DNA of 64,000 nt, taken from assembly GCA_029688905.1 (NCBI GenBank), contig JARULB010000003.1, forward strand, positions 1 through 64,000, written 5' to 3'. The notes under the pieces were generated by a model that saw only the letters and a program-made list of their open reading frames with translations, searched no databases and was not told the DNA's origin. Each line of letters starts with the position of its first letter. Position 1 is the first letter of the stretch. Made by a program: the position numbers and the translations under genes. The stretch comes from Balneolales bacterium ANBcel1 (GTDB lineage Bacteria; Bacteroidota; Rhodothermia; Balneolales; Natronogracilivirgulaceae). This document shows, piece by piece, positions 536-24,449 of the stretch.

Positions 536-1480
536 ATGTCAAGCTTTGGTGACCTTAACCGGGTGAATACCAATATTCAGTCGTTGATCGCCCAGCTTTC
601 GCTGAACCGCATCAACCGCAGTCTGGCGATCAATCAGCTCCAGCTGTCAACCGGCATGCGCATTAACCGGGCGGAAGACAACGCCGCCGGCTACTCCATC
701 GCCACCAAATTGAACAGTCGTGTCGCGGGACTTGGCCAGGCCCTGCAGAACGTCGGCGATGCAAAGTCTGTGCTGGACATTGCCGAATCCAGTTTCGACA
801 CGATCATGGACAACCTGATCGAAATGAAAGCCCTGGCAACCCAGGCCTCGAACGATACCCTGGGCAGCACCGAACGGGACTATCTCGGCAAACAGATTGC
901 CGCTCTGGGCCAGGATATCAATGACATCGCCAACCAGACGGTATTTCAGGATTTCGACCTGCTCAACGGACAGGCGGGACTTACCGGTGCCAGTGCGTTT
1001 TCGGGATCACTCACATTGACCTTCCAGGTAGGTGAACGGGCTTCCGATACCATCACAACCAACATCAGCGCGGTCAACGTCAATCAGCTGTTTAATACCT
1101 CCAGCATCACGTCGGGCAACATTTCGGTGTCCACGGGCGGCGCTCCCGGTCAGCAGGGGTCCCTGGTCTTCGGCAACGGAGCCACCGGGGCAACCTCAGC
1201 GGATTTTCGTTCGTTTCTCTCCGTTATTGACGGAGCCATCGACAGCATGGCACGGCGCGTCAACCAGGTGGGCATCACACAATCGTCCCTGAGTATCCGG
1301 GAGGTCACCCTGTCGCGCGGCATCAGTGCCAACCGGTCGGCGGTGAGTCGAATCATGGATACCGACTTTGCCAGGGCGCAAAGCGAATCGATCCGACTAC
1401 AAATTCTGCAACAAACAGCTATCGCCGCCCTTGCACAGGCAAATATGGGTCCGCAGTCCGTGCTCGGTTTTCTCCGATAA
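536..1480 (+). CDS. fliC: Flagellin (filament subunit)
   Basis: At 314 residues this is a compact flagellin. The N-terminal D0/D1 helices (about 1-140) carry the family pattern around LSTGMRINRAEDNAAG, and the C-terminal D1/D0 (about 235-314) ends LAQANMGPQSVLGFLR. Only about 90 residues lie between them, so the surface-exposed D2/D3 part is minimal; it is rich in Ser, Thr, Gly and Asn, which are plausible O-glycosylation positions. The ATG follows AGAGGAAA by six bases. It is the second of two tandem flagellins, has its own sigma-28 promoter and terminator, and is exported by the FlhAB/FliPQR apparatus encoded downstream, probably with help from FliS. Confidence 0.97.
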   Translation: MSSFGDLNRVNTNIQSLIAQLSLNRINRSLAINQLQLSTGMRINRAEDNAAGYSIATKLNSRVAGLGQALQNVGDAKSVLDIAESSFDTIMDNLIEMKALATQASNDTLGSTERDYLGKQIAALGQDINDIANQTVFQDFDLLNGQAGLTGASAFSGSLTLTFQVGERASDTITTNISAVNVNQLFNTSSITSGNISVSTGGAPGQQGSLVFGNGATGATSADFRSFLSVIDGAIDSMARRVNQVGITQSSLSIREVTLSRGISANRSAVSRIMDTDFARAQSESIRLQILQQTAIAALAQANMGPQSVLGFLR

Positions 1481-9475: not shown

Positions 9476-10603
9476 ATGATACCTGTAACCAAGCCGTTTT
9501 TACCGCCAAAAGAAGAGTACCAGGCCTATCTCGACGAGATATGGGAACGTACCTGGCTGACCAACAATGGTCCGCTCGTCAAAAAGTTTGAGCAGAAGAT
9601 GGCATCGTACCTTGGTTTTAATAGCCTAATCTACGTCAGCAGCGGAACAACGGCACTTCAGTTGGCCATAAGAGCTCTTGATTTGAAAGGAGAGATCATA
9701 ACCACACCATTTTCTTTTGTTGCTACAACAAACAGTATTCTCTGGGAAGGATGTAAGCCGGTTTTCACAGATATCGACCCGAAAACACTGAACATTGATC
9801 CTTCACAAATTGAAGAGTCGATAACTGCAGATACCTCGGCAATACTTGCCACCCATGTTTTTGGTAATCCCTGTGATATCGATGCCATATCCAGGATCGC
9901 GGAGAAGCATGACCTGAAAGTGATATATGATGCCGCCCACTGTTTCGGCACAAAATACAAGGGGCAATCTGTCCTGAATTACGGGGACATCAGTACCATA
10001 AGTTTTCATGCAACCAAAGTATTTCACTCCATTGAGGGAGGGGGTATTGTATGCCAAAATGAAAAGCTGGCAGAAAGAGTCGCATCACTTCGCAATTTTG
10101 GGTACAACACCAATGCTGAACATGCAAACCCTGGGATAAACGGGAAAAACTCCGAGTTTCACGCCGCTATGGGTCTTTGCAATCTGAAATACGCTGATCA
10201 GTTGCTCTCAGAGCGGGAGCATCAGTACCTGACGTACGTAAAACTGCTGATGGATCTCGATATTCAGTTGCAAGAGCCTGAATCCGGCACAAAAATAAAC
10301 TACTCCTACTTTCCGATACTATTTGAAAATGAGGAGACCCTTCTGGAAATGATAAAACGTCTGGAAGCAAACGGGTTTTACCCAAGACGCTATTTCCATC
10401 CTTCGCTTTCAGAGTTGCCTTACCTGAAAAAGCAGGATACGCCCGTCAGCCAGTCCGTTTCAAAGCGAATTCTCTGCCTGCCCATGTTTAACGGGCTAAA
10501 TCTTCAGGATCAAAAAAAGATGTGCCGACTGCTATTGCAGAAGAAGGCGCACTCTCTATATTTCAGGTTTTCGAAGGTTTTGATGAAGGCGGCAAGTTTG
10601 TAG
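9476..10603 (+). CDS. DegT/DnrJ/EryC1/StrS-family nucleotide-sugar aminotransferase
   Basis: A 375-residue PLP enzyme of the sugar-aminotransferase fold. The glycine-rich phosphate site is SSGTTALQLAIRAL (about 55-68). The cofactor-stacking and aspartate region is YDAAHCFG (D152). The Schiff-base lysine is K181 in SFHATKVFHSIEGGG. The family transfers an amino group from glutamate to a 3- or 4-keto nucleotide sugar. With a formyltransferase close by, a 4-amino-4,6-dideoxyhexose route (VioA/VioF-like, giving a formamido sugar) is a good guess but is not shown by sequence. The gene is AT-richer than the flagellar genes (one 60-base line counted at 38% GC), has a sigma-28-like promoter, and ends 13 nt from the opposing ParB-like gene. 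Confidence 0.93.
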   Translation: MIPVTKPFLPPKEEYQAYLDEIWERTWLTNNGPLVKKFEQKMASYLGFNSLIYVSSGTTALQLAIRALDLKGEIITTPFSFVATTNSILWEGCKPVFTDIDPKTLNIDPSQIEESITADTSAILATHVFGNPCDIDAISRIAEKHDLKVIYDAAHCFGTKYKGQSVLNYGDISTISFHATKVFHSIEGGGIVCQNEKLAERVASLRNFGYNTNAEHANPGINGKNSEFHAAMGLCNLKYADQLLSEREHQYLTYVKLLMDLDIQLQEPESGTKINYSYFPILFENEETLLEMIKRLEANGFYPRRYFHPSLSELPYLKKQDTPVSQSVSKRILCLPMFNGLNLQDQKKMCRLLLQKKAHSLYFRFSKVLMKAASL

Positions 10604-10616
10604 AAGGAAAAGAGTG

Positions 10617-11498
10617 TCAGTCACACACAGCTACCGCTGCAAGCTCCCGTAGTACAAATTGATTCCAACTCTTTGTAATCGGTGGTGATTCAGCCTCAAA
10701 AACTCTGTCAAAAAATTCCAGGGCCTGTTCTCTGGTATAATTCCCATTACGCACATGGGGCCAAAAATCTACATGCTCTCTGTCAATAACCAGGTTTACT
10801 CTTATGGGAATGCTATCATATCCCAACGCTGAGGCCGCGGCTGCCCGATGATTTCCAGCTGTCAGTAACCAGCGCCACTCACCATTACTTTTAACCAGAG
10901 CTGTCGCTCTGGCATCACCGTCACTTTCATCCGACCGGCAGTAGCTTTGATCTTTGATACTTTTTAGCACATTGCCAATACGCCTGGCTTCAACATCCAT
11001 TTTGGCCTCAGATACGGGCCCACAAAACAACCACCCGTCTTGAATGTCTCTGTCCATAATGCCTACTGAGCGATTCTCTTCTATAGCTGCCTTTTCATAA
11101 GCTTGCCTGTATGACTCAATCGAGCGTGCACGCCATGGAAATACAGCTGCCCAAGGTGGATTTTGGCGGAAAACATGACTTTCAGCTACCTGCATCCCCA
11201 ACCATTCAGCTGCATGTTCCGGAACCACCTTTTCATAATAGACCCTAAGTACATCCCGGATCACATCAAATACATCAGGCTTTTCCAAACCGTGCCTGAA
11301 ACCAGCCAGTGCGGAAAGATAAAACGGTGACGCACCTTTCAGACTAAATCCGGGTTGTGACCTCCCGTGTTGAAGACGACCAGTCAGTACAGCTGCAGAG
11401 TAAATCTCGCTGTAAAGAAGTGAGAGGGGATGTCCACCTCGGTTTCTCAGATCAGTAATGGCTTGTGACTTCATTGTACTTTTCTCCAGAGATTTCAT
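10617..11498 (-). CDS. ParB/sulfiredoxin-fold protein in the sugar cluster, function unknown
   Basis: A 293-residue soluble protein. The recognisable part is near residues 205-245, where TAGNHRAAAASALGYDSIPI follows the ParB N-terminal pattern (G-x-H/R-R-x-x-A-x-x-x-L-G-x-x-x-I-P). This fold can bind or hydrolyse nucleotides and is not by itself evidence of chromosome partitioning. No helix-turn-helix region is evident after it. The N-terminal 130 residues are helical and unfamiliar. Its start overlaps the end of the formyltransferase gene by 47 nt (23 nt if the internal Met at 11474 is used), so it is co-transcribed with the sugar genes and probably serves them. Confidence 0.65.
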   Translation of the reverse strand: MKSLEKSTMKSQAITDLRNRGGHPLSLLYSEIYSAAVLTGRLQHGRSQPGFSLKGASPFYLSALAGFRHGLEKPDVFDVIRDVLRVYYEKVVPEHAAEWLGMQVAESHVFRQNPPWAAVFPWRARSIESYRQAYEKAAIEENRSVGIMDRDIQDGWLFCGPVSEAKMDVEARRIGNVLKSIKDQSYCRSDESDGDARATALVKSNGEWRWLLTAGNHRAAAASALGYDSIPIRVNLVIDREHVDFWPHVRNGNYTREQALEFFDRVFEAESPPITKSWNQFVLRELAAVAVCD

Positions 11499-12174
11499 TT
11501 TTAGATGTACCAGGAGATACAGGATGCGGAATGGTCATTCTTTGAGCCTCAACGTCATCAATACTTGGTGAATAAGTACCACACTCAAATGTTGCACCAT
11601 CTATATAAACTCCATCCTCCTGACACCTTACACGTCCGGCATCAAACCACCTGACAACCTGAAGCAACATTCGACACTGATCCAAAAAGATTTTGTGACG
11701 GTTCACACTCACCGGGAGATTCGGATCAATGGGGCGCGCTGATTGAATAACCGGAAGTCCGGTATCCATTCCTTCATCAACCAAATGAACAGTAGCTCCC
11801 ATAAACCTGGCTCCACTCTTCAGTGTATCTTCGAAACCACCAAGACCCGGAAAAGCCGGTAATATTGATGGATGAAAGTTGAGAATCCTGCCCTTCATTT
11901 GCTGAAGTAACCTTCCCTTCAGGAGCCTGGTATAAAAAGAAATAATCAGATCCTCTCTGGTCAGTGAAAAAGCCTTGCAGATCGCATCTGAAAACGCTTC
12001 ACCGGTTTTGCTGTACAATGGAACAAGATCAATCCCGTAAAAACGCGCAATATCCTCGGCACCACATGGCCTGTCTGTGACTATCGCAGATATTTTCTTC
12101 CGAAGATACAGACTCTGCTCAAGTGTCTTCGATAATACGCTTCCATTGGTGGAACACAGTATGATTGCTTTCAT
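11452..12174 (-). CDS. PurN-like formyltransferase, probably acting on an amino sugar
   Basis: A 240-residue protein of the formyltransferase fold. N99-F-H101-P-S-I-L-P and D137 in D-E-G-M-D-T-G reproduce the catalytic Asn-His-Asp of glycinamide ribonucleotide and sugar formyltransferases (N106/H108/D144 in E. coli PurN). The family transfers formyl from N10-formyltetrahydrofolate to an amine. It is not likely to be the purine enzyme: the N-terminal phosphate loop is altered (CSTNGS instead of a G-x-G-S-N type), and it sits in a sugar operon near an aminotransferase. The inferred role is to make a formamido sugar. It overlaps its upstream WbqC-like neighbour by one base and its downstream neighbour by 47. 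Confidence 0.85.
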   Translation of the reverse strand: MKAIILCSTNGSVLSKTLEQSLYLRKKISAIVTDRPCGAEDIARFYGIDLVPLYSKTGEAFSDAICKAFSLTREDLIISFYTRLLKGRLLQQMKGRILNFHPSILPAFPGLGGFEDTLKSGARFMGATVHLVDEGMDTGLPVIQSARPIDPNLPVSVNRHKIFLDQCRMLLQVVRWFDAGRVRCQEDGVYIDGATFECGTYSPSIDDVEAQRMTIPHPVSPGTSKNEISGEKYNEVTSHY

Positions 12175-12989
12175 TATGCCTGCTCCAGGTGATAAGCCTC
12201 TAGTAAGTCCGCGGAATTTCTTCTACCATTAAACATCAGGACATCAATAATGGATAACCACGGGATATGCTTATCTCCAAACTGATTATATTCAACCGGC
12301 TTAGGTTTGATAAACCTTAGATCAATGCCTTGGTCTCTAAAATCACTTTTATTATAAAGCTTTTTACCTCCGGCAGGGTTTATGTAAACTTGCGCCCCAG
12401 CTTTACAGCAGATATCAATAATCCGTTCTTGTGCTTTCAGTTGGCTATTGCCGTTCGTAACGGAATTTCTGTAAAACCGGCACTCAATGCCCAGATACCG
12501 GGCACACACCTCTACACTTCTCTCGGCCAGATTCTGGATGTACGGTGAATCTGTATCAAGTACTTGCTCAATTAAAGTCATCACTTCAGTAAAAAAGGGG
12601 GCTTTGCCATAGGCATGACGGATGGTTAACAGCAGCTTTCTTTTACCTTTTCCATCCAAACGATGTTCAATTTCATTTATCAATCTGTTTTGTGATGGGT
12701 TAAAACAGGGAATAGTGAGGTATTTCCCCTCTCCATTGACCAGAATTCTATTTCTGTTGATCCATCCCCTCTTGATAAAGCTTACATCATCGAGAAAAAC
12801 AAATTGATCGACTGCATTTGCCAACTGAAAATAACCCAGATAAGGAAAAAAATATGGCTGCATGGCAGCTAGTCGGCTTGTTTCGACTGGCAAATTGTGA
12901 TCTGTCCCGAGCTCCTCCTTCAAATCGGAACTTCCTCCGGCCAATGAAGCTGGATAATCTATATCATTATCTCTCAGGAAATCAGTCAT
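12174..12989 (-). CDS. WbqC-family protein
   Basis: A 271-residue protein with the WbqC signature: Q-P-Y-F-F-P-Y-L-G-Y-F-Q-L, then FVFLDDVSFIKRGWINRNRI, then NPAGGKKLY near residue 200. WbqC-like proteins are recurrent in O-antigen and surface-sugar clusters, where they are thought to be transferases; the reaction is not settled. About 40 residues precede the usual family start and look disordered, so the true start could be later, though no Met lies just before the first strand. It starts 7 nt after the large fusion gene stops and overlaps the formyltransferase gene by one base, so the four genes form one operon. Confidence 0.85.
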   Translation of the reverse strand: MTDFLRDNDIDYPASLAGGSSDLKEELGTDHNLPVETSRLAAMQPYFFPYLGYFQLANAVDQFVFLDDVSFIKRGWINRNRILVNGEGKYLTIPCFNPSQNRLINEIEHRLDGKGKRKLLLTIRHAYGKAPFFTEVMTLIEQVLDTDSPYIQNLAERSVEVCARYLGIECRFYRNSVTNGNSQLKAQERIIDICCKAGAQVYINPAGGKKLYNKSDFRDQGIDLRFIKPKPVEYNQFGDKHIPWLSIIDVLMFNGRRNSADLLEAYHLEQA

Positions 12990-12996
12990 AGCTATT

Positions 12997-15900
12997 TTAT
13001 CCCCGAATATGACGATTTATTTTTTCCACAAGCTGACCGGCATAGTTCTCAAGCGTGAACTTCTCAAGAACCACTTCACGCCCCTGGCTTGCGATACTTT
13101 GTAATTTTTTGTCGTCCAGACTCAACAGCTCTTTAAGCTCACCGCTCCTCTGCCCGGTCATTAGTATCCCACTGCCATTCCCAAAGACTTTTTCCAGTTC
13201 GGAATTGTGATCGGAAAGAACACAGCTCCCGGAGACCAGAGCGTTACGCACTCTTTCGTGTACCTTGTCAGGAAACCCGGGGTCACAGTTGAGCACAACC
13301 TTTGTGCTGCGATACAATTCATCCAGCTTTTGCATCGAGACCTCTCCAATCCAGCGGATATTTCCTGCTTTTTTCAGGGTTGGAATCATATCCGCAGCAT
13401 CCGGATGGGCCGTTACTACTATCTTCCTTGCAGATTCGACATCTGATAGTTCTCCAAGCATTTCAAACCTTCTTTCCATCCTCACATACCAATCCACCAG
13501 ACTCAAAACACTCATCCACCGGAAATCATCCTCTGTTGACGGAGTCGAAAACTCGTAGCTTGTGTATCCCGACACCCTCATCGACTCACAGAAATGAGTA
13601 AACACCGACGAGGAGTAATCATTCTTTGATCTTCGGTAGGTCTCAATACCCACTTTCTTTGCATCCTGACCAAGCTCTTGCAACTGAGCTTTCAAACTCA
13701 CTTTTTGAGTCAGAAACTTGTGGATCCCCCACGGCACAAGAATATCAACTTCCCGTTCTGAAATCGGTTTAAGATCTTTTTCTGGTATAACAGGGCTCAT
13801 GGGAGGCGGATTATTCAACACCTCCGTTTGGGCCTTCCCAGGATATAGCGCCTGATACTCGTCTGCAATCGACCGGCAGGAAGTGAAAAACACCGTTTTC
13901 TTTGCACTGCGGCTCAAACGATTCCACATGAACCGGGTGTAGGGATGGTCACCGATAAACCCAAAAACCCTGGAATTCAAAAGATCAAACACATTACCGT
14001 TTACATTCATATCGGCATGCACCCACAAGTCATAGCCCATTACCCCTGCAAAGAAAGCGTGACCGGGAGTGTTGGACTGTACAACTACTTTTTCAAAGAA
14101 ATTTGAATCTGAAGCCGATACTACATCGGTATTTATACCCCTTGATTTCACCTCGTTCGCAAGCTGTTTTGCTCTTTTCAGATGGAGCCCATGAGCTCCT
14201 CCCTGAACGCCCGGAACTACAAAATGCAAATGAGTTAGGCGGTTACCCGCCAAACCATTGGTTCGGCGGGTATCCTTCGCACTTATTTCAACGACATCCA
14301 AGACTTTGGATTCCTTTCTTACCTGACCAGCCCCTGATACTTTTTTATTCATGCTCCAAAACCAGTCATTTCTCCGTGATGTGAAGTCGGCTGAAAAACT
14401 TCCGGACGCATCGGCCTCTCCATTCAAGTCCCCTTTTCTGCTCAACAGGGCATAATTTCTGGCAGTGTTCTCATGGTTGGATTTATCATCTCCCAGAACA
14501 TCAAGTATCTTTTTATCCTGTTGCCCAATGTGATAACCTGAAACCATCTTGAGCTGCAGCCAAGAGTCAATCAGCTTGATTCTCAGCCAGGTCAAATGGT
14601 CGTCACTGCCCCTATCAGCGGAAACATCATGCACAGGAAACAGTAATGGGAGGTCTACCGTGATATTCTCGCCCATCTTACTGGTCTGCATCAGCTTCTT
14701 CATGACCTCGACCGCTTGCTGCCTCCTTCCAAGAATGTTTAAGACCCTGGCAAGAGTAAGGGAAAGTTCCGCACCCGTATACCCCTTGTTGTAACGCTCG
14801 ATTAATATTCCGGCAGCATCAAGCAAAAGCGCTGCACGTTCCGACCCTGAAACCCCAACTGTCTCGGCCGCACAGATATAGCCAATTGCCCGATAATACT
14901 CTTTATTTCCCGTTCGTAACGAATTCTCCTTCCACTTTTCCATCAATGGCGAGGTCCACGGATAACGGCTGAAATGTTCTTTCCACAAACCCTCATCCGG
15001 AGTATTCGGCTTGACCTGCTCATCATGAATCCACCCTTCCGCCTGCAATACTTCCACCTTGTTTTGCGTCAATGCCACCAAATTTTGCAGATAACCATTC
15101 GCCGGCGCCTTAAGATCGTGTGGAATCATCAGTTTCAAATGATTCAGATACTCATAAATCGCATATCCCGAATTCTGCAATGACTCTAAAACCTTATAAC
15201 GACTCGGAGCATCGCCGTTCAATGCGAGGATAATCACAGGCGAGGCACTCCGTAGTAAACTTTCCGCCCCGGCCAGAACTCCTGCTTCCAATCCATTGAT
15301 ATCCAGTTTGATCACATCCACCTCCGGACGCCCCTCAAACTCCCACCAGGCATCCAGTGTCACAAGACTCACCTCGTCACCCTGCCCATCAGCGACAATC
15401 GTGCTCTCCTCCGGAGTCTTGCCCGTTTGCAAAACAGCTTTGCCCGATGTTTCCGAAACCGCCCGGCCGATCACCTCGACCTGATCCAACCCATTCTCCA
15501 GCTTGCTCATCTCCAAATGCCTGCGCGCCATTACCCCCGGCTCAAACGCATACACCTTCCCATCCGGACCCACTTTCTTCGCCATCGGCAACGCGTACAC
15601 CCCGAACCCGGCGCCCACATCCACCACATTCATGCCCGGCTTGAGGTACTCCCGCACAAACTGGAGCTCCGGCTCATACCACTGCTCCTGCTCCAACAGC
15701 ACATACGGGGTCAGCATATTCAGATCCGCCGGCGTGCAAATGGTCACCTCGTCTTTCGTCTCAATTTTCCAGACCTCCTTCGCGGATTCCTTCACAAAGC
15801 CGTTTACACCGCTATCCGGCCCAACACCTTCGCCTTCATGTTCATCAATGCGATCGTGACCGTTCCTGTTTTCAAGCCCATGGCTCGCGTCCGCTTCCGC

Positions 15901-18132
15901 CACGCTTCCATTTTTTTTCTGTGGATGGGTCTCGTGCCCGTTTGACAGTGCGTCGGCACTCTTCGCCACTTTCGCCGTCTTCGCCACTTTCGCCGTCTCC
16001 GTCACTGCCGCTTCTTCCAGCGCCTCTATCGTGATGTGATCCCGCCAGTCATCGCGACCGGACTCCCATCCTGCCACACGCTGCTTCCACATCTCGCGAA
16101 ACGCCGCCGTCAGGTGCGCACCAAACCGCCCACCATCACACAGCGCCGACAACCGCACACGCTCCCGCAGTCCCGCCCTCAGCTCCGCAAGGGCCTCCTT
16201 ATCCGAAGCCAGCGCCACCGCCTTCTCCACATAGTCCTCCCAACTGCCCGTAACCATCTCCGGCAAGCCCGCATTAACCAGATGTGTCGCCGAATGGCGG
16301 CCCGCAAAAGTCGGTCCCGGCAGCGTCACCACCGGCACACCCATCCACAGAGCCTCGCAGGTACTCAATCCACCCGAATACGGCCAGGGATCCAGCGCGA
16401 TGTCCACCTCATGGTATTTCCCCAGCAGCTCGTCATGCGGCGACTGACCCTCAAACAGCAGGCGATCCTTCTCGATCCCGAGCGATTCCATCTGCCCGAC
16501 AATCCGCCGCGTGAAAATTTCCGTATCGTACTGCTTGCTCTTGAGCAGCAGCCGGCTGCCCGGAACACGCTTCATGATTTCCGCCCATTGCTCCAGCAGC
16601 ACCGAATTTACTTTCGTCGGATTGTTAAAGCAGCCGAACGTTACGGCACCATCCCCCGCGGACGGCAGTTCATTGACTTCAGGGGCATATTCCGGTGGCA
16701 AAAAGCAGATGTAGTCGTCCGGCATGCGCACCAGCTTCTCGGTATAAAGTTCCTCTACCCCTTCCGGTGTCTCATGGTGGTCGGTGATCAGATAGTCCAT
16801 GGCCCGCAGTCCGGTGGTATTGAACAATCCGCCCACCCATTTCACGATGACCGGTGCCGGCTCAAGGGCCACTGTCCTCAGGCGGTTATCTGCCGAATGA
16901 CCGGAGAGCTCCACCAGTATGTCGATTCCGTCGTCGCGGATCATGTCGGCGATCACCTCATCCCGATACCCCAACACCGACTTCCAGCTGTCCGTCACCG
17001 CGTGGATTCTCCGGGTGATGGCATCAGACAGGTTGTTGGTTGTATAGCAATAGATTTCAAACTGCTCCTTCGGCAGGTTCTCCAGGGCCGAGGTAATCAT
17101 CCAGCCGACCGGGTGCCGCCAAAAACCACCCGACAAAAAGCCGATCCGCAACTTTCTGTCGGGGTTTTGATCAGACGGCACCGGTCTGGCCGGACGCACT
17201 TTCGGTGAAAACTGCTCATCCCATCGCAAATGCTGCTCAAAAATTTCTTGCCGGCTCCGCTCGGGGTTGTAGTGCAGCCCCATCAGGTAGTTGGAAAACG
17301 ACTCTACCGACTCCGGCTGATCTGCAAGCGCCCGGAGGTAATTCCGCTCGGATTCGTTGAAGCGGCCGATCTCCTGCAAAGCCAGCGCATAGTTTACCCG
17401 TACTGCCGCAAAGGTCGGGTACTCGGACAAAATCTCCTCATAGCGGGAAATTGCTTCCGCATAGGCACCTTCCACCCGGTCGATTTCGGCCAGGGTGATG
17501 CGCGCATCCAGGTCGCCCGACTTTTTCCCGATTAGTCCCTTGAGAACCTCCCGCGCTTCGTCAAACCGCTGCAGTTTCTGAAGCAGCCGCGCCTTCTCGC
17601 TGATCGCCTCGAAATACTCCTCGTCAATCCTGGCCGCAATATCGTACAGCTCCAGCGCCTTGGTTATATCGCCCTGATCACGGTAGATCGACGCGATTCT
17701 GAAAGCCACCCCCGCACTGCGCGGATCCAGCTGATTGGCTCGCTGAAAGCACCTGAGCGCCTCATCCAGCCGGGCCTGAGCCTGGTAAACCGATCCCAGA
17801 TTAAGCCACGCCTTGAAGAAATCCGGCCGCCGCTTCAGCGCCTCGCGGCCGCAACGGACCGCCTCGTCCAGGTTGCCCAGTTCCAGATACGCCAGAGAGA
17901 GCAAATGCCAGGTTTCCGGTTCATCGGAGCCACGATTCAGTGCCTCCTGCAAATAAGGCACTGCTTTTCCGTATTCCCGCTTGCTGATAAGCGCTACACC
18001 CATGTAGTGCCAGACCGGCCAGGGAGACTTCTTCTTTTTCTTCAACAAGGGCCTGAGAGCCTGGATGGCCTTGTCCGTATTCGGTTTTTTGCTGTTTAAC
18101 AGGGCTATTGCGCGTTCGAGCTGTAATTTCAT
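12997..18132 (-). CDS. TPR - GT41 (OGT-like) glycosyltransferase - FkbM methyltransferase - second glycosyltransferase fusion
   Basis: A giant soluble protein (1,711 residues from the ATG at 18132; an ATG at 18174 adds 14). Residue numbers here count from 18174. TPR repeats occupy about 20-310. A GT41 domain follows (340-700): RIGFLSGGFWRHP with H354, FGCFNNPTKVN with K521, DPWPYSGGLSTCEALWMGVP at 595-614; these match key OGT positions. A low-complexity linker (715-795) contains A-K-V-A-K-T repeats. An FkbM-type methyltransferase spans about 830-1010 (VVDVGAGFGVY, YAFEPG, VIKLDINGLE). A helical region covers 1060-1240. The C-terminal 1310-1725 is a second GT-B-like transferase with a CgeB-like end (HERVRNALVSGSCVLSDH). 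By analogy with Caulobacter FlmG (TPR plus GT), the TPRs may bind flagellin while the GTs build and methylate a glycan. GC drops sharply downstream of about 15.2 kb. Confidence 0.92.
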   Translation of the reverse strand: MKLQLERAIALLNSKKPNTDKAIQALRPLLKKKKKSPWPVWHYMGVALISKREYGKAVPYLQEALNRGSDEPETWHLLSLAYLELGNLDEAVRCGREALKRRPDFFKAWLNLGSVYQAQARLDEALRCFQRANQLDPRSAGVAFRIASIYRDQGDITKALELYDIAARIDEEYFEAISEKARLLQKLQRFDEAREVLKGLIGKKSGDLDARITLAEIDRVEGAYAEAISRYEEILSEYPTFAAVRVNYALALQEIGRFNESERNYLRALADQPESVESFSNYLMGLHYNPERSRQEIFEQHLRWDEQFSPKVRPARPVPSDQNPDRKLRIGFLSGGFWRHPVGWMITSALENLPKEQFEIYCYTTNNLSDAITRRIHAVTDSWKSVLGYRDEVIADMIRDDGIDILVELSGHSADNRLRTVALEPAPVIVKWVGGLFNTTGLRAMDYLITDHHETPEGVEELYTEKLVRMPDDYICFLPPEYAPEVNELPSAGDGAVTFGCFNNPTKVNSVLLEQWAEIMKRVPGSRLLLKSKQYDTEIFTRRIVGQMESLGIEKDRLLFEGQSPHDELLGKYHEVDIALDPWPYSGGLSTCEALWMGVPVVTLPGPTFAGRHSATHLVNAGLPEMVTGSWEDYVEKAVALASDKEALAELRAGLRERVRLSALCDGGRFGAHLTAAFREMWKQRVAGWESGRDDWRDHITIEALEEAAVTETAKVAKTAKVAKSADALSNGHETHPQKKNGSVAEADASHGLENRNGHDRIDEHEGEGVGPDSGVNGFVKESAKEVWKIETKDEVTICTPADLNMLTPYVLLEQEQWYEPELQFVREYLKPGMNVVDVGAGFGVYALPMAKKVGPDGKVYAFEPGVMARRHLEMSKLENGLDQVEVIGRAVSETSGKAVLQTGKTPEESTIVADGQGDEVSLVTLDAWWEFEGRPEVDVIKLDINGLEAGVLAGAESLLRSASPVIILALNGDAPSRYKVLESLQNSGYAIYEYLNHLKLMIPHDLKAPANGYLQNLVALTQNKVEVLQAEGWIHDEQVKPNTPDEGLWKEHFSRYPWTSPLMEKWKENSLRTGNKEYYRAIGYICAAETVGVSGSERAALLLDAAGILIERYNKGYTGAELSLTLARVLNILGRRQQAVEVMKKLMQTSKMGENITVDLPLLFPVHDVSADRGSDDHLTWLRIKLIDSWLQLKMVSGYHIGQQDKKILDVLGDDKSNHENTARNYALLSRKGDLNGEADASGSFSADFTSRRNDWFWSMNKKVSGAGQVRKESKVLDVVEISAKDTRRTNGLAGNRLTHLHFVVPGVQGGAHGLHLKRAKQLANEVKSRGINTDVVSASDSNFFEKVVVQSNTPGHAFFAGVMGYDLWVHADMNVNGNVFDLLNSRVFGFIGDHPYTRFMWNRLSRSAKKTVFFTSCRSIADEYQALYPGKAQTEVLNNPPPMSPVIPEKDLKPISEREVDILVPWGIHKFLTQKVSLKAQLQELGQDAKKVGIETYRRSKNDYSSSVFTHFCESMRVSGYTSYEFSTPSTEDDFRWMSVLSLVDWYVRMERRFEMLGELSDVESARKIVVTAHPDAADMIPTLKKAGNIRWIGEVSMQKLDELYRSTKVVLNCDPGFPDKVHERVRNALVSGSCVLSDHNSELEKVFGNGSGILMTGQRSGELKELLSLDDKKLQSIASQGREVVLEKFTLENYAGQLVEKINRHIRG
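15962..15997. repeat. 18-bp tandem repeat, two exact copies
   Basis: TTCGCCACTTTCGCCGTC occurs twice back to back (15962-15979 and 15980-15997), with a decayed partial copy after it. On the coding (minus) strand it encodes the alternating A-K-V/T-A-K linker of the fusion glycosyltransferase, between the GT41 and FkbM domains. Repeats in frame like this change linker length by six residues per unit. Confidence 0.85.
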
Positions 18133-18240: not shown

Positions 18241-18312
18241 GGATGAACCATTGTCCGGGGCAGCGGCCTTCGATACCGCGGCCTTCCGCCCCCCCTCTCT
18301 CTTTACAAATAA

Positions 18313-18333
18313 TGTGCCACCCTTTATGGCACA
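18313..18333. other. Perfect 7-bp inverted repeat in the divergent promoter region
   Basis: TGTGCCA (18313-18319), a 7-nt loop and TGGCACA (18327-18333), followed on the plus strand by AGTTTT. It sits between the divergent sugar operon and fliS. As it ends no gene, a protein-binding operator is as likely as a weak terminator. Confidence 0.45.
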
Positions 18334-18413
18334 AGTTTTGCTCTGATGATCCTGTCCGTGCCGTGAATCGTGCGGGTGTCGTTTTGTTTAAAAGATCCTA
18401 ACGTTCTGGGCGT

Positions 18414-18476: not shown

Positions 18477-18803
18477 ATGAGAAATCCACAACTTGAATAT
18501 CAAAGACAGTCGGTACTCAATGCCTCACCAATCAAACTCATTGTGAAGTTATATGATCTGGCGATACAGGCATCGTACCGGGAGGATCAACAGAAGCTGA
18601 GGGACATCCTCTCTACCCTGATCAAGGGACTGAATTTTGAACATGAGCCTGCAGATCAGCTTTTCAACCTGTACCGATACTGTCAGGATCTGGCCCGGCA
18701 GCATAAATATGACGAAGTGCGCGAAGTCCTGGAACCCTTGCGGGAAGCCTGGGAAGAAACCGCCACCCAAACCACCATGCAAAGCGCCAACGGCACCTTT
18801 TGA
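18477..18803 (+). CDS. fliS: Flagellin export chaperone FliS
   Basis: A 108-residue helical protein. The N-terminus follows the FliS pattern (Y-x-x-Q-S-V-L-N-A-S-P-I-K-L-I-V-K-L-Y-D-L-A-I), where FliS usually has V-x-T-A-S-P-x-x-L-I-x-M-L-Y-D-G-A-I. FliS binds the C-terminal D0 region of flagellin in the cytoplasm, keeps it unfolded and delivers it to FlhA. It is short for the family (usually 120-130), the loss being at the C-terminus. It heads a sigma-28 operon ahead of fliD. Confidence 0.85.
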   Translation: MRNPQLEYQRQSVLNASPIKLIVKLYDLAIQASYREDQQKLRDILSTLIKGLNFEHEPADQLFNLYRYCQDLARQHKYDEVREVLEPLREAWEETATQTTMQSANGTF

Positions 18804-18921: not shown

Positions 18922-20355
18922 ATGAGCTCCGTAGGAAATATTTTCCAGTCAACCAATCCTTACGAAAAATTTGTCCAGCAGCTGGTCGAACTTGAAAGCC
19001 AGACCAAGTACAAATTGCAGGCTCAGCAGGGTGTGCACCGTGAGCGGAAAGATGCCCTGGGAGCCGTCAGCTCTTCCATCTCCAAATTCAACAGCAAACT
19101 GGAGGAACTGCAGGATAAAGACAACAACGCCTTCCATCCGCTGAAAACCTCTTCCTCCAACGAAAAAGCCATACGGGTGAATTCGGCCAGTGGTATTGAC
19201 CGGCCATCGGTCTATAATATCGATGTGGAACGCCTGGCAACAAGGGATGTGGCCCTGGCCCAGGTTATGTCCGCCGAAGGAACCGACCTGGCATCCTACG
19301 GCAGCGGATCGGTAACCCTCACCATTGGCGACCAGACCGAGACCATCACCCTCGAAACTCAGAAGGACGACGGCGACGGTAATATGGTCGATATGACCAA
19401 CCACGAAATTCTGGACGCCTTCGCCTCCCAAATTACCGAGCATTTCGGTGATCACGCCCAGGCGAACGTATTCCAGGTAAACAATGACGAAGTTCAGTTT
19501 TCCATCCAGAGTCTGAACACCGGCCACGAGAACCGGATTCAGTTCAGTGATGCCGACGGCGTCCTGGATACCATCATCAACGGCAGCGGAGACGACCAGG
19601 TACTTGCCATGCATCATCTGGTCGATCAAATGGAGCTGGATGCACGGTTTACGATCGACGGAGTGACGTTTGAACGGGCCGACAACCTGGTGGACGACGC
19701 CGTTACCGGTCTTAATTTCGAACTGCTGCGTACCACCACCGAAACCGAACAGATGTCCGTGCAGCGCGACACGGAGAAAGCACGCTCCAACGTCAACAGC
19801 TTTGTTTCCGCGTTTAATGAAATGAACAAAACCATCCGCGACCGGACCTTTATCGACGCGGAAGGTGACCGCAGGGGTGCTCTGCAGAATATGCGGGGTA
19901 TCAGAAACCTGACTCTGAATCTCCGCCAGATCGGACTCCAGTCCATGGATGGCATGGAGCCCGGCCAGGTTGGCAGGCTTGCCGACATGGGGATCAGTTT
20001 TGACAAGGACGGCACCATGCGGGTAGACGACTCGGAAAAACTCGATGAGGTTCTTGCGGAGCGCCCCGGAGAAGTTCAGGCATTTTTTACCAGCGAGGAA
20101 TCTCCCATCAACCTGATGCTGGAGCAAGCCGAATCCTTTACAAAAGCCCGTACCGGCATCATCGCCTCCATGGAAGACGGCATCGACCAGCAGCTCAGCC
20201 GGCTCGATAATCGTATCGCCGCACAGGACCGACACCTCGAGCAGTATGAGCAGCGGCAGCGGGCCGAGTTTGCCAAACTTCAGCAGATCATCACCCAGGG
20301 TGAAGATCAGTTCAACCAGGTAATGATGTTCCAGCAGCGTCTGGGCATGTTCTGA
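18922..20355 (+). CDS. fliD: Filament cap protein FliD (hook-associated protein 2)
   Basis: A 477-residue protein with the FliD N-terminal domain (about 5-100; YEKFVQQLVELESQTKYKLQ, then the L-x-x-L-x-x-K-D and V-Y-N-I-D-V-E-R-L-A pattern) and the FliD C-terminal domain (about 225-465; S-F-V-S-A-F-N-E-M-N-K, later L-A-D-M-G-I-S-F-D-K-D-G-T-M). FliD forms the pentameric cap that folds flagellin at the filament tip. Gap of about 120 nt after fliS. The acidic residue content is high through the central domain, suggesting a salty or alkaline external setting, though this is only suggestive. Confidence 0.93.
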   Translation: MSSVGNIFQSTNPYEKFVQQLVELESQTKYKLQAQQGVHRERKDALGAVSSSISKFNSKLEELQDKDNNAFHPLKTSSSNEKAIRVNSASGIDRPSVYNIDVERLATRDVALAQVMSAEGTDLASYGSGSVTLTIGDQTETITLETQKDDGDGNMVDMTNHEILDAFASQITEHFGDHAQANVFQVNNDEVQFSIQSLNTGHENRIQFSDADGVLDTIINGSGDDQVLAMHHLVDQMELDARFTIDGVTFERADNLVDDAVTGLNFELLRTTTETEQMSVQRDTEKARSNVNSFVSAFNEMNKTIRDRTFIDAEGDRRGALQNMRGIRNLTLNLRQIGLQSMDGMEPGQVGRLADMGISFDKDGTMRVDDSEKLDEVLAERPGEVQAFFTSEESPINLMLEQAESFTKARTGIIASMEDGIDQQLSRLDNRIAAQDRHLEQYEQRQRAEFAKLQQIITQGEDQFNQVMMFQQRLGMF

Positions 20356-21578: not shown

Positions 21579-23051
21579 ATGCAAGGACGTATTTTAGTTG
21601 TCGATGACGACAAGCTTCTGCTGGGTTTCATGGAAGAGCATCTATCCATGAACAACTACGATGTCGTCGCGTTCAATTCTCCTGTGGAAGCACTCTCTTA
21701 CCTGGAAAAGAACCGGGTCGATCTGGTCGTCAGCGATGTCAAAATGAATGAAATGACCGGAGATGAGGTAATGAATCACATCAACCGGAATTACCCGGAC
21801 ACCGGCGTGATTCTCATAACCGGCTTCGGCAGCATCAACCACTCTGTGAATGCCATCCGTAAAGGCGCTTTCGATTACGTGACCAAGCCGTTTACGTCAC
21901 GCGAGATTCTGTACCGCGTAAACCGGTTTTTTGAAACCGCTCCGGAAGAGCGACGGGCGGAAGCGTCCACGCCGGCACCTTCTACCGGTACCACTACCGG
22001 GGAACCGGAATCTGGCGCAGCCCAGTCTTCGAAATCAACCTCCGGCGGACAGAAAAAAGCGGGAGGCGGAAGAGGCGGCCGCAAAGCCGAGATCAAAATG
22101 GTAGGGCAGCACCCGCACATCCGGAGGCTGCTCAGCATGTTGCCGCAAATTGCCCGGAACAACGCTCCCATCCTCATCCAGGGCGAAAGCGGAACCGGGA
22201 AAGAGGTCTACGCACACCTGATCCACCATGAAAGCGATCGCGCATCCGGCCCTTACCTGAAAATCAACTGCGCCAACCTGCCCTCCGAGCTGGTGGAAAG
22301 CACCCTGTTCGGGCATATGAAGGGCTCTTTTACCGGTGCGACCAGCGACCGCAAGGGAGCCTTTGACGAAGCCGACGGTGGCACGCTGCTGCTGGATGAG
22401 ATCACCGAGATCGACATCAACATTCAGGCAAAGCTGTTGCGGGTTCTGCAGGAAAAAGAGTTCCAGCGCGTCGGCAGCCAGAAGCCGGTGAAGGTGGATG
22501 TCCGGGTTATCGCTACCACCAACCGTCAGATGACCGAGGCTATCGCCGAAAACCAGTTCCGCGAAGATCTCTACTACCGCCTGAACGTATTTCCCATCAC
22601 CATCCCCCCGTTGCGCGAGCGGCGCGATGACATCCCCATGCTGGCCCAGTTCTTCATAGACCGCTATACCTCACAATACGATATGGGGGAAAAGACGCTT
22701 TCGAAACAACTGGCCGATTACCTGATGGAACAAGAGTGGAAAGGCAATGTGCGGGAACTTGACAATAAAATCCACCGGGGCGTAATCCTCTCCCAAAAAG
22801 AACCCGAAATCTCCATTGAACATGTGGAGGACCACCTCTTTTCGAATGTCGATGAGGAGATCAAAAGCGAGGTTCTGGCCGACATCCCGCTCATCCCCAT
22901 TGAGGAGATGGAGCTTCAGATGATCAAAAAGGCGCTGGAGAAAACGCGCGGCAATCAGAAGAAGGCGGGGCAGCTGCTGGGTATTTCCGATCGTACCATC
23001 CGCAATAAACTGAAGAATAGCGGCTGGACCGAAGAGATGGACTCCGATTAG
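21579..23051 (+). CDS. NtrC-family sigma-54 activator (FlrC/FleR/FlgR-like) with receiver domain
   Basis: A 490-residue regulator. A receiver occupies 1-120 (VVDDD, SDVKMNEMTGDEV with the phosphorylatable Asp, and KPF). A Ser/Thr/Gly-rich linker covers about 125-170. The AAA+ sigma-54 domain (about 175-410) has Walker A GESGTGKE, the sigma-54 loop as GSFTGA in place of the usual GAFTGA, and Walker B LLLDEI. A Fis-type helix-turn-helix closes the protein (about 445-485; KKAGQLLGISDRTIRNKL). Gene context (late filament operon on one side, rod/hook operon on the other) makes it the likely activator of the sigma-54 promoters before flgB and flgF. The probable kinase partner is encoded at 59469-60623. 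Confidence 0.93.
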   Translation: MQGRILVVDDDKLLLGFMEEHLSMNNYDVVAFNSPVEALSYLEKNRVDLVVSDVKMNEMTGDEVMNHINRNYPDTGVILITGFGSINHSVNAIRKGAFDYVTKPFTSREILYRVNRFFETAPEERRAEASTPAPSTGTTTGEPESGAAQSSKSTSGGQKKAGGGRGGRKAEIKMVGQHPHIRRLLSMLPQIARNNAPILIQGESGTGKEVYAHLIHHESDRASGPYLKINCANLPSELVESTLFGHMKGSFTGATSDRKGAFDEADGGTLLLDEITEIDINIQAKLLRVLQEKEFQRVGSQKPVKVDVRVIATTNRQMTEAIAENQFREDLYYRLNVFPITIPPLRERRDDIPMLAQFFIDRYTSQYDMGEKTLSKQLADYLMEQEWKGNVRELDNKIHRGVILSQKEPEISIEHVEDHLFSNVDEEIKSEVLADIPLIPIEEMELQMIKKALEKTRGNQKKAGQLLGISDRTIRNKLKNSGWTEEMDSD

Positions 23052-23072: not shown

Positions 23073-24449
23073 TTATCCGGTCTTCTTCCGCAGCTTCATC
23101 CCTGCGATTACCCGCTGGGCTTTTTTAAGGTCCTTGCTTTTGGAAAGCGCGACCAGCCAGCGCCGAACATACGTTTCGTTGGATGGCTCCAGTTCCATCA
23201 TTTTCTGGTACCGTGCTCCCGCGAATTCGTACCAGCCCCGCTCCATGAACAGGGTCAGATAATCAAATACCTGCTCTTCGGTCGCGCTGTCCATCTTCTC
23301 GGCAAATGAAGCGCCAAACAGTTTTTTGAACAGCCCTTCCGACTGCTCGAAATCCTCCTGCTCGATGGCGAACAGGAGCAGCCGGTGCAGCAGCCCCTGA
23401 TCCACATTCCCGCCCCGCAGCATATACAATTTGCTGTAGTGTTCGTACGATGCCTTGCGCATCCCGGCACGAAACGCCATGTCGGCCAGTTGAGCCAGAG
23501 TCTCATCTTCCGGCAGCACTTTGTCAAAATTGGCCGCCGAAAGTTCGTCCCTCAGGGAGTAGTAGGTAAGCAGAATGTCGTGCGCCTCTCCCCACCGTTT
23601 ACCCAGCTGATGAATCCGGTAGAGAATCAGGTAGGGAAGGCGTTGTTTCGGCTCCAGGCGGATCGACTTGACCGCCGTATCCAGCGCCTGGTTCCATTTG
23701 TACTGTTCGGCCATGCAGCTGGCCAGCCCGTTGATGGCAGCCAGACGGTCATACGGAAGTACATCGCCCGAGTGCATCACTTTTCGGTACTGCGCGGCGG
23801 CGTGCACATATTTTCTCTGGTCGAAGTACCGTGCGCCCATTGTCAGGTAAACCTGGGGGGAGGGACGGGCAACCGACAGCTCATCTTCCGGATCCAGCTC
23901 CTCAAACAGCCTGCTCTCCCTGTGTATGTACAGGGGCTCCCCGGTTATGTTGATTCCGTTTCGGGTGATGTGGGAGGTACAGTCGGGCAGGTTCTTTCCG
24001 TCAAATAACGGCTCTTTGGAAGCGGCCACAAGCCGTATCTGATAACACTGCCGCAGCATATTGCCGTCGCGCCACTGGATCATCACCGGCGGCCAGTTCT
24101 TCAGGCTGTCGGTGTCGAGGGCGCCGAACCCGGAGAGATTCACAATCTCGTCATCCTCCAGAAAAAGAGCCCAACGAGTACTGACTTCGGCAAGCATCCG
24201 GTTCCACACCGCCGACCGGTACTCTTTCGGTTCGTAACGCATCCAGCGTACGGTGTCGGGCACATACTCCGGACGGTCGCCCGGCGCCGCTACCTGTACG
24301 GCCGGAAACCACGCGAGCCATTGCCTCACAGCATCTGCCTGCAGCATCGTTTCATCCGTCAGAAACAGGACCGGAGTAATGTCGGCCATATTTTCTGTTT
24401 CTCCAAAAAGGGTGCTTTCAGAGACCGAAGCGGTTTGTTCTTTTTCCAT
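23073..24449 (-). CDS. Putative GT2-like glycosyltransferase with TPR repeats
   Basis: A 458-residue soluble protein. Residues about 20-115 look like the core of a family-2 (SunS-like) glycosyltransferase: RSAVWNRMLAEVSTRWALFLEDDEIV resembles the R-N-x-G-L-x-x-A-x-G-x-W-I-L-x-L-D-x-D-E pattern of that group, here with E-D-D-E as the metal/nucleotide motif. From about 200 to the end come TPR-like helical repeats (Y-L-T-M-G-A-R-Y-F-D-Q-R-K-Y-x-x-A-A-x-Q-Y). It is the last gene of the flgF-to-flgL operon, 57 nt after flgL. That position suggests a motility-linked protein glycosyltransferase. The GT assignment is moderate; the TPR assignment is firmer. Confidence 0.65.
   Translation of the reverse strand: MEKEQTASVSESTLFGETENMADITPVLFLTDETMLQADAVRQWLAWFPAVQVAAPGDRPEYVPDTVRWMRYEPKEYRSAVWNRMLAEVSTRWALFLEDDEIVNLSGFGALDTDSLKNWPPVMIQWRDGNMLRQCYQIRLVAASKEPLFDGKNLPDCTSHITRNGINITGEPLYIHRESRLFEELDPEDELSVARPSPQVYLTMGARYFDQRKYVHAAAQYRKVMHSGDVLPYDRLAAINGLASCMAEQYKWNQALDTAVKSIRLEPKQRLPYLILYRIHQLGKRWGEAHDILLTYYSLRDELSAANFDKVLPEDETLAQLADMAFRAGMRKASYEHYSKLYMLRGGNVDQGLLHRLLLFAIEQEDFEQSEGLFKKLFGASFAEKMDSATEEQVFDYLTLFMERGWYEFAGARYQKMMELEPSNETYVRRWLVALSKSKDLKKAQRVIAGMKLRKKTG

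Follow-up and report, generated by a model that had tools for sequence, protein, structure and literature searches.

Beside the fliS-fliD genes of Balneolales bacterium ANBcel1 lies a single reading frame of more than 1,700 codons, which raises the question of whether one polypeptide could bind flagellin, attach a first sugar, and then methylate and extend the glycan. In the window, i.e. the 64,000 nucleotides of contig JARULB010000003.1 analysed here, the gene occupies positions 12997-18132 of the minus strand, and the frame runs uninterrupted from an ATG at 18132 to a stop codon at 12997-12999 (1711 codons); an alternative TTG start 42 bases upstream would yield a protein of 1725 aa. A sequence-only reading of this DNA had described one such frame joining a TPR array, a GT41 domain, an FkbM-type methyltransferase and a second glycosyltransferase, and this description holds: Pfam and NCBIfam profiles place TPR, GT41, FkbM and Glyco_trans_1_2 matches in this order, all above curated cut-offs, and the domain search and structure prediction it had proposed as a check recovered the four modules, with FkbM and GT-B folds modelled. 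The fusion is not an assembly or frameshift artefact, since two further genomes (G243 and G258, loci L052 and L055) encode collinear full-length relatives with 46-48% identity. Chance neighbouring of TPR and glycosyltransferase domains is likewise ruled out by the kept architecture and synteny.

The TPR array comprises about residues 1-300 (17233-18132, minus strand), as detected by Pfam TPR families, and is the predicted flagellin-binding part by analogy with the N-terminal domain of Caulobacter FlmG (PMC7591256). The GT41 catalytic domain follows at residues 310-690 (16063-17205, minus strand), matched by Glyco_transf_41 (PF13844) in two stretches (E=1.4e-47, 162.7 bits versus a cut-off of 25). 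The key His and Lys previously assigned to this OGT-like domain were located as His340 (17113-17115, motif FRxHPVGW) and Lys507 (16612-16614, motif CFNNPxK), i.e. the domain displays the profile match, the catalytic His and the nucleotide-contacting Lys of the GT41 family. In an alignment of 25 relatives, the catalytic motifs, these two residues included, are kept wherever they are covered. The chain thus has an FlmG-type layout, with N-terminal TPRs fused to an OGT-like transferase in a protein predicted to be cytoplasmic.

The solved structures nearest to the GT41 domain are the Thermobaculum terrenum TPR protein 5djs (E 4e-90), a putative OGT, and the Arabidopsis O-fucosyltransferase SPINDLY 7y4i (4e-81); the nucleotide-site motif residues are similar in both. 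According to phmmer alignments, the site has an Asn before the Lys and a Glu, as in SPINDLY, rather than the Gln and Asp of the human OGT site, and hence UDP-GlcNAc should not be assumed as the donor. GDP-fucose, suggested by the likeness to SPINDLY, is unsupported: a profile search of the window's genome returned no gmd match above cut-off (best 72.6 bits versus 415), which makes this donor unlikely through the de novo route, the one covered by the search.

The FkbM-type SAM methyltransferase (residues 820-1010; 15103-15675, minus strand) stands as previously assigned. Residues 838-990 match Methyltransf_21/FkbM (PF05050; 3e-12, 47.4 bits versus a cut-off of 22.7), the NCBIfam model fkbM_fam matches as well (1.3e-24, 87.3 versus 37.7), and the SAM-site residues (D/G and E) are invariant across 17 sequences. 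An AlphaFold model of the FkbM-spacer region (17 sequences, pLDDT 84.6) shows a methyltransferase succeeded by an alpha-helical spacer, with the FkbM protein 2py6 as top PDB match. The spacer (residues about 1011-1215; 14488-15102, minus strand) is conserved in alignment A2, and its end forms the module-swap boundary, as identity drops just after it. The distal, variable module is a GT-B glycosyltransferase (residues 1297-1711; 13000-14244, minus strand), with Glyco_trans_1_2 (PF13524) matching residues 1586-1702 (2.8e-13, 50.5 bits versus 25). The last 700 residues of the chain matched no sequence in the PDB; structure prediction yields an entire GT-B fold for the module (pLDDT 72.7), for which Foldseek finds the GT4 enzymes BshA, MshA and GlgM at E~1e-9. 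The proposed second transferase is therefore present, but the 'CgeB-like end' ascribed to it is not a separate element; because the C-terminal part models as a complete GT-B, it represents the second (donor) half of this fold.

The gene adjoins fliS-fliD and heads an operon-like run, as had been read from the sequence. fliS, encoding the flagellin export chaperone (18477-18803, plus strand; PF02561, 3e-13), and fliD, encoding the filament cap (18922-20355, plus strand; PF07195/PF02465), are immediately divergent from it. On the minus strand, the fusion gene opens a tight run of four genes, with a 7-bp gap and then overlaps. The second encodes a WbqC-like protein (12174-12989; PF08889, 4e-69), the third a PurN/VioF-type formyltransferase-like protein (11452-12174; PF00551, 6e-23; 85.9 bits with the PurN model, well short of the required 150) with predicted activity in amino-sugar N-formylation, and the last, overlapping the third, a 293-aa protein (10617-11498) for which Pfam and NCBIfam gave no match. 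Facing this run is the gene of a DegT/DnrJ-type aminotransferase (9476-10603, plus strand; PF01041, 5e-94; DesI model 276.6 bits, below cut-off), predicted to be a dTDP-4-keto-6-deoxyhexose 4-aminotransferase. The predicted substrate, a flagellin, is encoded at 536-1480 (plus strand; NCBIfam flagellin models and PF00669). We note that more flagellin genes are found on another contig of this genome (C9:59648-63783, L036), at the contig end, where the last one is cut.

Beyond fliD, two small genes precede that of a sigma-54-dependent response regulator (21579-23051, plus strand; PF00158, PF00072 and PF02954), which is syntenic in relatives and a candidate activator of two promoters. Between the fusion gene and fliS-fliD, two sigma-54-like sites are arranged head-to-head: TGGCACATTATTTGTA (18304-18319, minus strand; one mismatch) reads into the fusion gene and TGGCACAAGTTTTGCT (18327-18342, plus strand; a perfect match) into fliS-fliD. 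Taken alone these could be due to chance, as the whole window holds five sites with at most one mismatch versus 2.5 expected. Of 23 loci, however, 16 have a site with two mismatches or fewer in the 300 bases that precede the gene, against 1.4 expected from shuffles. No convincing sigma-28 site was detected upstream of the fusion gene, and no sigma-54 site upstream of the five flagellin genes passing the filter.

The position beside a sigma-54 activator gene would suit a mainly regulatory TPR-GT41 protein with catalysis as a secondary function, by analogy with Listeria GmaR, a bifunctional protein that is both flagellin glycosyltransferase and anti-repressor. The retention of all catalytic motifs and the attachment of additional enzyme modules speak against such a role, as does the placement of GmaR outside GT41 (to our knowledge it is not a GT41 protein), and we regard it as highly improbable.

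Among 129 genomes of the Balneolales, with flagellin called by Flagellin_N at E<=1e-24, a GT41 relative is present in 39, flagellin in 46, and both in 34. GT41 relatives thus occur in 34 of the 46 flagellin-bearing genomes versus 5 of the 83 without a flagellin match (Fisher p=7e-16, in a test that ignores relatedness), and the gene tracks flagellin over several families. The five exceptions comprise two incomplete genomes (G001 and G431; 76% and 82%), two in which the contig breaks off soon after the gene, in the direction in which relatives have their flagellin genes (G425 and G427), and G042, with a divergent, unlinked 662-aa protein. Twelve flagellin-bearing genomes lack the gene, which is hence not needed for flagella in general. 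By our count it adjoins fliD in 36 of the 39 carriers, mostly divergent from fliS-fliD and often with flagellin genes thereafter; in G426 it lies one step from fliD, with the fliD unit on one side and the regulator gene on the other, and in G464 it opens the contig directly upstream of flagellins. In genus g29, two genomes (G463 and G467) encode a 690-aa protein of TPRs and GT41 alone, from a gene that separates fliS from the flagellins, and a third (G347) has no GT41 gene, with fliS directly adjoining flagellin. The layout of the former two is close to a natural minimal FlmG-type system.

Flagellar linkage and co-presence with flagellin, both characteristic of FlmG-type transferases, were accordingly found. 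A higher central Ser/Thr content in the flagellins of carriers was looked for and not found (22% in GT41-positive versus 21% in GT41-negative genomes, p=0.31). Their central region is longer (median 109 versus 79 aa), and carriers show enrichment of Ser/Thr at a few positions, in comparisons that do not control for phylogeny.

The same neighbourhoods allow for a different acceptor, which might be FliD, some other protein of the flagellum or a surface polymer built on a lipid: the invariant gene nearest to the fusion gene is fliD and not a flagellin gene, and DegT, WbqC-like and formyltransferase genes are known from O-antigen clusters too. Yet GT41 enzymes have proteins as acceptors, flagellin arrays succeed the gene in many genomes and directly follow its minimal form, and the TPRs of FlmG bind flagellin (PMC7591256), so that this possibility appears slight. 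We therefore retain flagellin as the probable acceptor. The FlmG-like O-glycosyltransferase function proposed in the sequence-only reading is well supported by genomic evidence, namely co-occurrence, fliD and flagellin synteny, sigma-54-like promoters and the minimal gene between fliS and flagellin; extension and methylation of the same flagellin by one chain, the other part of that proposal, is consistent with the architecture, and overall the claim is partly supported.

How the distal enzymes relate to this function is informed by their variation. The second transferase is no constant component of the chain but one of several interchangeable distal modules, absent or encoded by a separate gene in some relatives. 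Residues 1 to about 1215 are kept, and beyond them relatives carry unrelated enzymes, classified here through Pfam. The GT-B tail of the window recurs in G243 and G258, whereas other genomes have GT2 and GT-B (G305 and, by similarity, G424 and G425), GT2 (G048), GT2 and a methyltransferase (G327, G394), GT56 (G030, G052, G313) or a second FkbM domain (G055, G041, G025, G281, G317, G398 and, by similarity, G426). Further tails are APH/choline-kinase-like (G005, and also G006, which is without FkbM), protein-kinase-like (G023), or methyltransferase plus protein-kinase-like (G026), where the kinase-like assignments come from low-scoring Pfam matches and might stand for other phosphotransferase-fold activities. 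In G046, G219, G293 and, by similarity, G428 the tail is missing and a separate TPR-GT56 gene is present instead. The same GT-B tail was also considered for L020 (G016) and ruled out, with 20% identity there and a contig that ends inside the gene.

The breakpoint is sharp between close relatives. For L023 and L029, from the same genus, identity falls from 50-90% to about 20% at residue ~1200-1260, for L022 and L057 from 70% to 23%, and for L053 and L054 from 68% to 30% and lower. At the DNA level, L022 and L057 are 79% identical over a 9.9-kb stretch that extends from fliS-fliD to within the core, after which similarity is lost until the flagellins. These three pairs are strongly supported sisters in the core tree (residues 1-685), which broadly agrees with the FliD tree, while the tail types require at least 15 changes over 24 labelled rows, three for the GT-B type alone. 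Hence, the core is mainly vertically inherited and the tail exchanged.

The sugar genes vary along with the tail. The window's GT-B module is found in 7 of the 129 genomes, in all cases at fusion-type loci or on a contig fragment. In G305 and G425, DegT and WbqC genes separate the fused gene from a second FkbM-spacer-GT-B gene, which stands on its own (914 aa); in G424, a fused GT2-GT-B gene is followed by DegT and WbqC genes; and in G243 and G258, RmlA-like, hexapeptide transferase and DegT genes accompany the module. The WbqC-like and DegT proteins of the window thus have relatives beside the module in G305, G425 and G424, those of DegT being 53-56% identical. rmlA (500 bits) and rmlB (453 bits) score above cut-off elsewhere in the window's genome, which therefore encodes RmlA, RmlB and DegT of a viosamine/Qui4N-type dTDP-amino-sugar pathway, DegT as a family-level match. 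Given the association of the GT-B module with neighbouring dTDP-amino-sugar genes, an N-acylated dTDP-4-amino-4,6-dideoxyhexose is predicted as the last sugar, possibly bearing a formyl group, as a family-level match suggests. Separately, sulfotransferase-like genes adjoin the fusion gene in some relatives (L056:2048-3103, L057:14314-15030), suggestive of sulfated flagellar glycans.

Linkage of this kind cannot prove that the distal modules act on flagellin. The TPR-GT41 part might modify flagellin with one sugar, the FkbM and distal modules acting elsewhere or being attached for stoichiometry only, in line with the minimal TPR-GT41 genes without either (G463, G467) and with the distal enzymes encoded by separate genes (G305, G425; split forms G046, G219, G293, G428). 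Such a division is improbable in our judgement, because the separate TPR-GT56 protein has its own core-related TPR array (32-35% identity), suggestive of a shared substrate, and because within the order the GT-B module is restricted to fusion-type loci or a contig fragment.

Based on these comparisons, we propose that the protein is probably an FlmG-type enzyme that builds flagellin glycans in the cytoplasm, operating through capture, priming, methylation, addition of a distal sugar and exchange of the tail; flagellin as the substrate, the order of steps, the identities of the sugars and the methylation target are what we infer. Sigma-54 would turn on the fusion gene together with fliS-fliD, and the TPRs would capture newly made flagellin prior to FliS-dependent export. 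The GT41 domain, using His340 and Lys507, would then add the first sugar to Ser/Thr, and the FkbM domain would O-methylate a sugar, though it could methylate something other than the flagellin glycan. The distal GT-B would add the terminal sugar, for which a dTDP-4-amino-4,6-dideoxyhexose is the likeliest candidate; the DegT, formyltransferase-like and WbqC-like products, together with RmlA and RmlB, would make and N-acylate (e.g. formylate) it. With the core inherited vertically and the distal module exchanged along with the sugar genes, the outer glycan would differ between relatives. We also favour, with somewhat less assurance, the broader view of a fixed capture-and-priming core (TPR-GT41-FkbM-spacer) whose distal enzymes, i.e. 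transferase, methyltransferase or kinase-like, are exchanged at a single locus along with their sugar genes and would thereby diversify the outer glycan of the flagellum, perhaps as protection from phages that bind it.

Among the closest known systems is FlmG of Caulobacter crescentus, in which the TPR domain binds flagellin and TPR plus OGT-like transferase suffice for cytoplasmic glycosylation (PMC7591256). Shared features are the N-terminal TPRs, the C-terminal OGT-like transferase, the flagellar context, the cytoplasmic location and the independence of Maf (PMC7591256), and the layout is matched exactly by the ~690-aa proteins of G463, G464 and G467. However, FlmG comprises 596 residues, adds pseudaminic acid and has neither a methyltransferase nor another transferase (PMC7591256), whereas the window's chain is 1711 aa long, includes two additional enzymes and has dTDP-amino-sugar genes in its vicinity.

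The sequence-only reading had named no precedent for this module order. For the union of GT41 and methyltransferase there is one, as SPINDLY-type (COG3914) GT41 proteins with methyltransferase domains were reported from flagellin islands of Enterobacteriaceae, in a survey of 194 strains (De Maayer and Cowan 2016, PMC4875605). These islands also combine GT41 and AdoMet methyltransferase in one protein and hold DegT, formyltransferase and FkbM genes; they belong to another phylum and are located between fliC and fliA, not next to fliS-fliD, and the accessible part of that report mentions neither a TPR-GT41-FkbM-second-transferase chain nor tail exchange (PMC4875605). Within the literature covered, which extends to few subscription papers, we found no paper on an additional transferase at the distal end of such a chain or on tail exchange at constant core, nor on flagellin glycosylation in the Balneolales or their phylum. 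In the viosamine island of Pseudomonas syringae (vioA, vioB, vioT, vioR, vioM, fgt1 and fgt2), a modified 4-amino-4,6-dideoxy sugar similarly ends the flagellin glycan; the aminotransferase involved is of the VioA type, and the transferase is a protein of its own (PMC3927599). The P. syringae functions are, however, distributed over separate genes with an unrelated Fgt transferase, in contrast to the one chain of the window. The methyltransferase among them is encoded by vioM.

What is new is hence the core-constant, tail-variable variant; TPR-GT41 flagellin transferases and GT41-methyltransferase proteins are already known. If the proposal is true, one polypeptide captures flagellin and primes, methylates and caps its glycan, and replacement of the last module rewrites the glycan. 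The natural series of constant cores and variable tails would permit tests of channelling in multi-step protein glycosylation and of diversifying selection on outer sugars, and the interchangeable tails could serve glycoengineering.

Other proteins of related appearance were observed. At an unlinked position, G030 and G052 also encode a TPR-GT2-GT56 protein (about 1275 aa; L034:5440-9270, L035:7978-11805), with a TPR region weakly related to that of the core (24%), possibly a second protein glycan builder. Another family of the phylum has frames of 2000-3500 aa with GT41 domains, in some cases two (G099:C79, G144:C71, G384:C384, G217:C87). Finally, the gene of a 458-aa protein (23073-24449, minus strand) separates flgL from that of the sigma-54 regulator, as it does in nearly all relatives (30-46% identity). 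This protein has no Pfam match, and the motif ALFLEDD may point to a GT-A-like enzyme, perhaps another flagellar modifier.
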